Below are positions 28,722 to 29,839 of a stretch of DNA of 42,914 nucleotides, in pieces; positions within the stretch are counted from its first letter, which is position 1, and each line of letters starts with the position of its first letter. Origin of the DNA: a virus. Location: positions 1 to 42,914 of IMG/VR virus record IMGVR_UViG_3300021594_000673; one strand, given 5' to 3'. Position numbers and translations under genes: made by a program. The notes beneath the pieces are model-generated. The model was not told where the DNA came from. It saw nothing but the letters and a program-made list of their open reading frames with translations, and made no database searches.

Positions 28722-28796
28722 AGAGGTCGGAGATAGATTTCCACTATCCTAAGGGGTCTTGCGGACCCTCACCTAAGTACTCAGCCACCCGACCTT
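28722..28796 (-). ncRNA. tRNA-like element without a TTC T loop
   Basis: Acceptor-like AGGTCGG/CCGACCT and a Ser/Leu-type start (GGTGGCTGAGTACT) are present. The middle hairpin GGGT/ACCC has loop CCGCAAG (C at position 33), and the T-arm hairpin GATAG/CTATC has loop TGGAAAT in place of TTCRA. Probably not a normal substrate for the ribosome. Confidence 0.45.
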
Positions 28797-28896: not shown

Positions 28897-28928
28897 CAAA
28901 GTTATTAAACTTCTTTCATATTTTCAAC
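28897..28928 (-). promoter_or_regulatory. Bacteroidota-type promoter of the suppressor-tRNA unit
   Basis: On the minus strand GTTG, 20 bases, then TAACTTTG, overlapping the end of the gene at 28905. It can express tRNA-Sup independently of the upstream Pth2 operon. Confidence 0.6.
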
Positions 28929-29246
28929 CATATTCAGATATTCTTCTTTGGTTGTTTTTTTCTTTGGGACATACCCTCTGTTTTCTCGTCTTCTATTAAC
29001 CCACTTCTTTAGGTTTCTGTCGTTACGGTAGTTTTTTATTTCATCTGAGGTTTCCTTATAAATCTTCATAACCTCATCAAAAAGTTTAACTTTATCTTCA
29101 TCAGTTAATTTTTTTCTTTCACTTAGACATGCCCAGTATTCTCTTGAATATGGTTTGTGATGGGTACATACACCTAAAAGTTTATGGATTTTATTTGAGA
29201 AAGCCGATTTAATCATCATTGTTGGGTTGTGTTTTGTGTTTTTCAT
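28905..29246 (-). CDS. hypothetical basic protein, 113 aa
   Basis: A Lys/Arg-rich helical protein starting MKNTKHNPTMMIKSAFSNKI with two Cys/His pairs (VCTHHKPYSREYWAC) that could bind metal, and a basic WVNRRRENRGYVPKKK stretch suited to RNA or DNA. It follows the amber-containing gene by one base, so it is the third gene of the Pth2 operon. Confidence 0.5.
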   Translation of the reverse strand: MKNTKHNPTMMIKSAFSNKIHKLLGVCTHHKPYSREYWACLSERKKLTDEDKVKLFDEVMKIYKETSDEIKNYRNDRNLKKWVNRRRENRGYVPKKKTTKEEYLNMVENMKEV

Positions 29247-29247
29247 T

Positions 29248-29505
29248 TTAGTAAATTTTTGCTGTTATTTTATTGTTTTCCTCACTAATGGACAATTGTC
29301 CTTTGAATTTTATACTCCCTTTAGTGTGGGGATTGTCGGGAGTTTCTTTTGTTGAAAAACCAATTCCTGGTAATACATCAACGTGGTCAACGTAATGTGT
29401 ATCACCACGACACTTCACAACCCACATTGGGATTGTTGAGTTCTGAATGTGTTTCTTGTTAAAATGAAACACAATTTCTTCTTTTTTTTCTGTTATCTAT
29501 TTCAT
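29248..29505 (-). CDS. hypothetical protein with in-frame amber at codon 3
   Basis: The frame starts ATG AAA TAG ATA ACA (amber at 29497-29499) and stays open for 82 more codons. An in-frame GTG at 29472 gives a 74-residue alternative start. The body (IPMWVVKCRGDTHYVDHVDV, then STKETPDNPHTKGSIK) matches a small beta-rich family common in T4-like phages with no proven function. The start lies four bases after the stop of the Pth2 gene, and the first five codons mirror those of that gene. Confidence 0.6.
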
Positions 29506-29509
29506 AAGT

Positions 29510-29839
29510 TTATTGTTTAAGTGCTAATGGTAATGATTTTGTATGTCCATGACTTTTTTCATTGTGTTGAAACGCAATGGATGTTAACTGATTATTCAAA
29601 TCAGGTTCGTAGAATGTGGAAATAGGAATTCCAAACGATTCTAACTTTTCTAATACTTTGTTTAATGATTGTTCGTTTTCGGTGGATAAACAAATAAGAT
29701 AGTTATTGTTCCACTCTTTTGATTTTTCAGGATGCTCCAACAGATATTGAGCAATTGCATGTCCTGATTGTGCGATTTGAGCACCTGGCATCAAATCTTT
29801 TCTTGTAACTACGTAGAGTCTGTTTGTAATCTATTTCAT
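29510..29839 (-). CDS. Pth2-type peptidyl-tRNA hydrolase with in-frame amber at codon 3
   Basis: The frame reads ATG AAA TAG ATT ACA AAC, then N-R-L-Y-V-V-T-R-K-D-L-M-P-G-A-Q-I-A-Q-S-G-H-A. LYVVTRKDLMPGAQIAQSGH is the first strand and helix of the Pth2 fold (compare VVRTDL..GKIAAQ.SHA) and FYEPDLNNQLTSIAF is its C-terminal signature. The amber codon is at 29831-29833. There is no ATG between it and the conserved strand; the internal TTG/ATG at 29794/29791 would delete that strand. Pth2 frees tRNA from peptidyl-tRNA. Full-length product should need the amber tRNA encoded at 28646, or a rare AUU start. Promoter-like TTTG lies at 29872-29875 with TATATATA 20 bases on. Confidence 0.75.

Follow-up and report, generated by a model that had tools for sequence, protein, structure and literature searches.

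The window analyzed here is a 42.9-kb IMG/VR phage fragment (42,914 nucleotides, considered over its whole length). Its minus strand carries a Pth2-like gene and an adjacent gene, here called P2, each interrupted near its start by an in-frame amber codon, with two tRNA genes following on the same strand. The features are as follows, in the order in which they are read.

29510-29839, minus strand: Pth2-like gene, 109 aa if the TAG is read, ending in TAA, with an in-frame TAG at codon 3
29831-29833, minus strand: amber codon of Pth2 (codon 3), +4 base A
29248-29505, minus strand: P2 gene, 85 aa if the TAG is read, ending in TAA, with an in-frame TAG at codon 3
29497-29499, minus strand: amber codon of P2 (codon 3), +4 base A
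28905-29246, minus strand: 113-aa ORF directly after P2, lacking both a family match and an early TAG, uncertain membership of the module
28723-28794, minus strand: Cys(gca)-like tRNA adjoining the suppressor tRNA (ARAGORN), absent from the Rfam results at gathering score
28645-28717, minus strand: suppressor tRNA with anticodon CTA and anticodon loop CTCTAAA (ARAGORN; Rfam tRNA, 60.9 bits)

An earlier note on this DNA had read these openings as ATG AAA TAG ATT ACA for Pth2 and ATG AAA TAG ATA ACA for P2, and both were exact. Both frames stayed open after the TAG up to their TAA, as the long in-frame ORFs described there, and not a single ATG, GTG, or TTG was present between the TAG of Pth2 and its conserved first strand. 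The CTA tRNA was also found downstream on the same strand, 0.53 kb past the end of P2, as one of 31 tRNA genes in the window, and the assignment to Pth2 was borne out by a match to Pfam PTH2 of 28.5 bits, against a cut-off of 23. The sequence ATGAAATAG occurred in 4 copies in the window, compared to 0.95 expected (0/100 shuffles got to 4), and ATGAAATAGAT was present at the Pth2 and P2 openings only. A sigma-70 promoter scan of the window gave no excess over shuffles worth interpreting. The possibility that the TAG is an assembly error, raised in the same note, was dismissed because the same in-frame amber codon recurred in hundreds of assemblies and in cultured phages.

It had also been proposed that this opening be sought in homologous phages, and there it recurred. 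A peptide-pattern search with gated Pth2 queries (that is, with the early in-frame stop), which was blind to TAG and reached down to about 40% identity, gave 80 IMG/VR loci. At 78 of these, the first in-frame stop upstream of Pth2 was TAG, with an ATG close before it and nearly always no start codon between the TAG and the Pth2 core; the early stop of Pth2 and P2 lay within about 13 codons of the upstream ATG. Database counts include related phages many times over; after dereplication to <80% identity, TAG was the first upstream in-frame stop in 57/58. A suppressor-type tRNA was located within 6 kb of Pth2 at 72/80 loci (70 CTA and 2 TTA), and it was on the same strand as Pth2 in all 49 representatives, at a median distance of 1.0 kb. 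The two TTA tRNAs adjoined the two ungated Pth2 genes (L350 and L355, the anticodon call in L350 looking doubtful), and at a few gated loci, mostly on short contigs, no suppressor tRNA was detected in the stretch around the gene. Amber suppression is favored by a 3' purine, and the +4 base was a purine in 98/98 gated Pth2 loci.

The gated Pth2 proteins share a match to PTH2 (PF01981) above the cut-off (28 to 34 bits for five gated relatives), yet they form a divergent group without the Lys of the canonical GK motif. In the alignment, this residue, which stands before the QxxHA helix and which we take to be catalytic in canonical PTH2, was replaced, e.g., by PGYQ or PGAQ. Since the presumed catalytic Lys is missing from the group, hydrolase activity should not be assumed.

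The TAG was equally regular in P2. A P2 query against viral contigs found 71 loci, most of them with an in-frame TAG at codon 3 to 6 (codon 10 in one) directly before the conserved core, with openings such as MK*ITEK.., MS*IEYACKDLVFHFNKKHL.., MTTL*NCKEAVFHF.., and METLV*NEV.. (asterisk, TAG), in phages with and without Shine-Dalgarno sequences. An alignment search returned at least 391 viral loci, of which the best 80 were taken and 78 analyzed; all 77 of these further loci with an intact 5' end carried an early in-frame TAG, at codon 3, 4, 5, 10 or later. As the codon number varies among carriers, the position drifts while the TAG is kept. The +4 base of gated P2 was a purine in 56/57 loci and A in 55/57, the suppressor tRNA was on the same strand as P2 in 23/23 representatives, and the CTA tRNA was often the sole tRNA within the 10-kb stretches around these loci.

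Where P2 lacked the TAG and had an ordinary start (L041, L042, L044, L047, and L049-L052), the overlapping upstream Pth2 had one at 8/8 loci examined, with openings MK*INPKLRVVTRRDL, MT*INNQ.., MTH*INQ.., and MKN*IENN... Pth2 and P2 are separate genes in the window and in its close relatives, and there both contained the TAG. Hence, either both genes are gated or, in a coupled pair, the first one is. In L088 and L090-L092, P2 was ungated and no gate was identified. Homologues with a sense codon in place of the stop and no CTA tRNA, which the earlier note had named as evidence against its reading, were indeed found, but among distant Pth2 relatives only; among close relatives, loss of the stop from P2 was paired with a stop in the first gene of the operon. 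Pth2 was also ungated in the jumbo phage XacN1 and in L004 and L005, where a CTA tRNA was present. As a separate observation, the P2 homologue at L058:4998-5228 had its sole in-frame TAG inside the core (ITDP*GIPPWV), with a CTA tRNA approximately 0.9 kb upstream.

P2 gave no match to Pfam, PHROGs, or PDB sequences and, in one scan, had no relative among the cellular genomes of 84,980 species; it adds a protein family found here only in phages. AlphaFold predicted a confident small beta-rich fold for the short P2 core (pLDDT 90), for which Foldseek against the PDB returned nothing below E 0.5. Long forms of P2 (L055-L178) have in their C-terminal half a second domain of approximately 90 aa, predicted to be ferredoxin-like, and an acidic tail. 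The resemblance of this domain to ferredoxin-like folds reached a Z of only about 5, and we therefore claim no function for it.

Selection was then compared for the codons that lie behind the TAG but ahead of any further usable start, and that no start codon other than the ATG before the TAG precedes. For P2, pN/pS was 0.33 (pS 0.62, pN 0.21), and for Pth2 it was 0.29 (pS 0.74, pN 0.22), compared to 0.7 to 1.7 for the same stretches in shifted frames, without comparable synonymous excess. As judged from these substitution patterns, the post-TAG codons of Pth2 and P2 are under protein-level selection and hence translated.

The suppressor tRNAs were diverse, with 153 unique sequences, mostly with discriminator A, G1:C72, and the loop CTCTAAA. 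Their best-matching ordinary tRNAs were scattered over many isotypes, and an origin of the window tRNA from tRNA-Trp was unsupported as a general rule. The label tRNA-Pyl in these records is merely the ARAGORN term for a CTA anticodon. Four genomes (W01, G011, G001, and G006) had exactly one suppressor tRNA each, <0.7 kb from the gated gene. For G007, with a gated P2 and no local CTA tRNA, a genome search set as a test of prediction gave two CTA tRNAs elsewhere. In G009, where ARAGORN found none for a gated Pth2, inspection by eye identified, approximately 20 nt before Pth2, a tRNA-like sequence that has a poor D arm and the loop CTCTAAA; a thermodynamic fold failed to single out this sequence. 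An element of this kind, missed by ARAGORN and with the CUA loop CTCTAAA and a poor D arm, lies directly upstream of a gated Pth2 at L049:4540-4612. The Cys(gca)-like tRNA (ARAGORN) was also observed beside the module in several relatives, in L041-L052 just behind P2. Rfam at gathering score did not return the window copy, which could therefore be tRNA-like only, degenerate or of a special kind.

Cultured or complete phages allowed the pairing of stop and anticodon to be compared. Sinorhizobium phage Phosso and Agrobacterium phage Atu_ph07 are relatives, with Pth2 proteins 72% identical that keep the GK-motif Lys (AGKLASQ); the Phosso protein matched PTH2 with 73.8 bits. In Phosso, Pth2 opens AGGAG..ATG AAG TAT TAG, and among 61 tRNAs found there were CTA tRNAs at 171,983 and 446,731 and none with TCA. 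In Atu_ph07, the opening is AAAGG..ATG ATT GGC GAA CAC TTT TGA, and the 30 tRNAs found included one TCA and no CTA; the opal suppressor is also given by the paper describing this phage (PMC6102473). On sequence comparison, stop codon and suppressor anticodon are thus switched together between Phosso (TAG/CUA) and Atu_ph07 (TGA/UCA). In both phages, the operon consists of Pth2, an ORF of 108 to 110 aa, and then the P2 domain, with no local suppressor tRNA.

Further cultured or complete phages were compared as well. In the cultured Rhizobium phage RHph_I1_18, an unannotated P2 opens MSEFM*NESCREVIFHFN, with a CTA tRNA directly behind it, and in Tenacibaculum phage pT24, a tRNA-Sup is annotated 2.6 kb upstream of a Pth2 that opens MK*ITKNSNRSNKVEQSQKFRIITRSDL. 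Four huge phages (LR756500, LR756501, LR756504, and LR745206) had Pth2 with an early TAG, and CTA tRNAs were seen near Pth2 in LR756500 and LR756501. Cluster C mycobacteriophages (191 similar records) had (A/G)TG TAG GTG before Pth2 and a CTA tRNA 0.1 to 0.3 kb behind it in 6/6 examined, and a TTGACA/TANNNT pair puts the predicted transcription start at the (A/G)TG. On this predicted promoter, the Pth2 mRNA would be leaderless with TAG as codon 2; as annotation begins Pth2 at the GTG that follows the TAG, possibly an ordinary start, we regard this group as suggestive only. The Pth2 genes of Phosso, Atu_ph07, and pT24 are annotated from a later start, so that gated genes are truncated by automatic annotation or, like P2 of RHph_I1_18, escape it.

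A second class of candidate targets consisted of short ORFs of the form M-x(n)-UAG-x(1-6)-PP-stop adjoining the modules and mostly ending in KPP or RPP. A regex scan for such leaders gave 40 TAG matches on the module strand versus 4 on the other, and on the module strand such UAG mini-ORFs ended in PP more often than in any other pair of residues (29/747, versus 3/303 on the other strand). In the Stenotrophomonas maltophilia phages Summit, DLP_3, and DLP_5, the leader MK*VYKPP# (the final sign standing for TAA) was invariant, while neighboring bases diverged. Two related loci differed in the stop: L094:4576, with a CTA tRNA, had the TAG leader MKLDKL*VTKPP#, and its relative L093:4578, with a TCA tRNA at the same place, had the TGA leader MKKQKLYEL+VIEPP#; both leaders precede ungated Pth2-P2. 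The leader of Atu_ph07 was MK+IVFKPP*. Pro-Pro before a stop slows termination, and UAG-PP leaders may for this reason be suppression-sensing leaders.

The leader in Summit, DLP_3, and DLP_5 (L377:1943, L378:293, and L379:295) reads ATG AAG TAG GTC TAC AAG CCG CC(G/C) TAA with a strong Shine-Dalgarno sequence before it; the surrounding DNA differs by approximately 10%, and a hypothetical gene and the amber suppressor tRNA follow. Relatives of that gene follow such leaders in other phages too. A third small family, ..RNQRKTV..LR.MYAAYA.LRGR...IE, was noted after UAG-PP leaders (L330:6544-6852, L331, L323, L312, L005, and L377:2031-2363), and three members tested had no match in Pfam.

The earlier note had argued that full-length Pth2 and its neighbor are made only when the suppressor tRNA is present, a claim that the kept in-frame stop, the linked tRNA, and the joint switch of stop and anticodon strongly support. 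From these sequence data, the phage suppressor tRNA and the stop-locked Pth2 and P2 very probably constitute a translational AND gate, the tRNA being taken to decode the stop because of the covariation and selection data. The amber codon close to the start of Pth2 and/or P2 would be read by the phage CUA tRNA, and the yield of full-length protein would depend on, and roughly scale with, transcription, processing, and charging of this tRNA; in its absence, translation would end at RF1 after a few residues. We infer readthrough during infection, its efficiency, and its timing.

Alternative readings were weighed against this one. Ordinary genome-wide amber recoding (code 15 type), with TAG simply a sense codon in these phages, would fit the window, where TAG ended 1/56 called genes and that one TAG was directly followed by TGA, and it would fit LR756501, which has an additional TAG inside its gated Pth2. 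However, in six other whole records the share of called genes ending in TAG was 8.2, 3.8, 2.8, 8.8, 7.3, and 8.8%, and when four whole records and the window were scanned for genes opening ATG..stop without an alternative start, Pth2 and P2 were the sole clear early-TAG genes. Because TAG still ends about 2 to 9% of genes and no other genes were clearly gated, wholesale recoding is highly improbable. A start downstream of the stop, at ATT, GTT, or another non-canonical codon, with the TAG merely ending a leader of 2 to 12 codons, is suggested by the ATT right after the TAG in many members and by the annotated GTG start of the cluster C mycobacteriophages. It is very unlikely, if a little less so than recoding: the codon after the TAG is AAC, AAT, GTT, CCC, or AAG in other members, Shine-Dalgarno spacing suits the upstream ATG, and such a start is unable to explain the in-frame constraint, the choice of TAG only, the linked CUA tRNA, or the switch to TGA/UCA. 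The least probable of all was the alternative of the earlier note, in which ATG AAA TAG acts as a minigene giving a dipeptidyl-tRNA as Pth substrate to tune the system, with readthrough incidental. AUG-AAA-stop does resemble lambda bar-type minigenes, and a Pth2-like gene adjoins; however, a bar-type minigene is an ORF of a few codons without coding continuation, whereas here the frame runs on with a pN/pS of about 0.3 after the stop. Moreover, the position of the stop varies between codon 3 and about codon 13, its frame is always that of a conserved protein under selection, and the stop is almost never TAA, being matched to the suppressor anticodon, with TGA in the relative that has a UCA tRNA. 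As a main function, the minigene is therefore not supported.

Why Pth2 and P2 should be locked is a matter of lower confidence. Suppression would yield readthrough products together with abortive peptidyl-tRNA, and our leading guess, which we hold at roughly even chances, is a feed-forward purpose in which tRNA-handling proteins (Pth2-like and P2) are made only in step with suppressor activity. Repair of peptidyl-tRNA drop-off by Pth is a plausible rationale for locking Pth2, to be set beside the absence of the presumed catalytic Lys from the gated group. The main rival is a negative-feedback homeostat, in which Pth2 and P2 target the suppressor tRNA or the peptidyl-tRNA made from it and serve as a self-made brake, making suppression a pulse. 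It draws on the nature of the targets, a tRNA-acting fold and a protein linked to that fold in the operon even without a local suppressor tRNA (Phosso and Atu_ph07), and on the ungated Pth2 genes of L004 and L005, which still adjoin a CTA tRNA. The missing Lys speaks against it as well, and we consider it possible but rather unlikely.

Several known systems resemble the proposed gate in part. In amber-recoded phages (code 15, Crassvirales and others), a phage CTA suppressor tRNA also reads UAG in phage genes, and control of gene timing has been proposed (PMC9523058, PMC10879173). There, however, TAG occurs across many genes, whereas here it occurs once, near the start of one or two genes beside the tRNA, and remains a stop for part of the genes. 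Selenocysteine and pyrrolysine insertion likewise relies on a special tRNA that decodes a stop codon; in contrast, the tRNAs described here are diverse and ordinary-looking, both UAG and UGA are used, and the stop is N-terminal, outside the conserved core, and absent from relatives. The same logic, an amber gene combined with a controlled suppressor tRNA, underlies an engineered Escherichia coli loop, described as a coherent feed-forward loop that damps leak (PMC7969014).

Suppressor tRNAs have been reported without identifiable targets in XacN1 (CUA; PMC5852040) and in siphophage Summit (CUA; PMC9022506), and for the UCA suppressor of Atu_ph07 several UGA-ending genes were given as possible targets only (PMC6102473); where a method is described, these authors sought readthrough past gene ends. 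By comparison, the Pth2 gene of Atu_ph07 proved to have, near its start and in frame, a TGA that corresponds to the UCA tRNA of this phage, and Summit to have a UAG-containing leader adjoining its tRNA; XacN1, whose Pth2 start is normal, is still unsolved. In the open-access papers searched, neither Pth2 nor P2 was described as a target of suppression.

Phage suppressor tRNAs have long been listed without known targets unless the whole genome was recoded, and dedicated targets can now be named. We lean slightly toward the view that such tRNAs, in phages of several host phyla, are part of a conserved and previously unrecognized regulatory module comprising the tRNA with a stop-locked Pth2, a stop-locked P2, and/or a leader M..UAG/UGA..(K/R)PP-stop whose suppression may cause ribosome arrest, so that suppression would be the signal and Pth2 and P2 would handle it or feed back on it. 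The engineered suppressor-tRNA feed-forward loop would have its natural equivalent in this gate, which occurs in phages of several host phyla, and the cultured cluster C mycobacteriophages, grown on Mycobacterium smegmatis mc2 155, make the gate directly testable.
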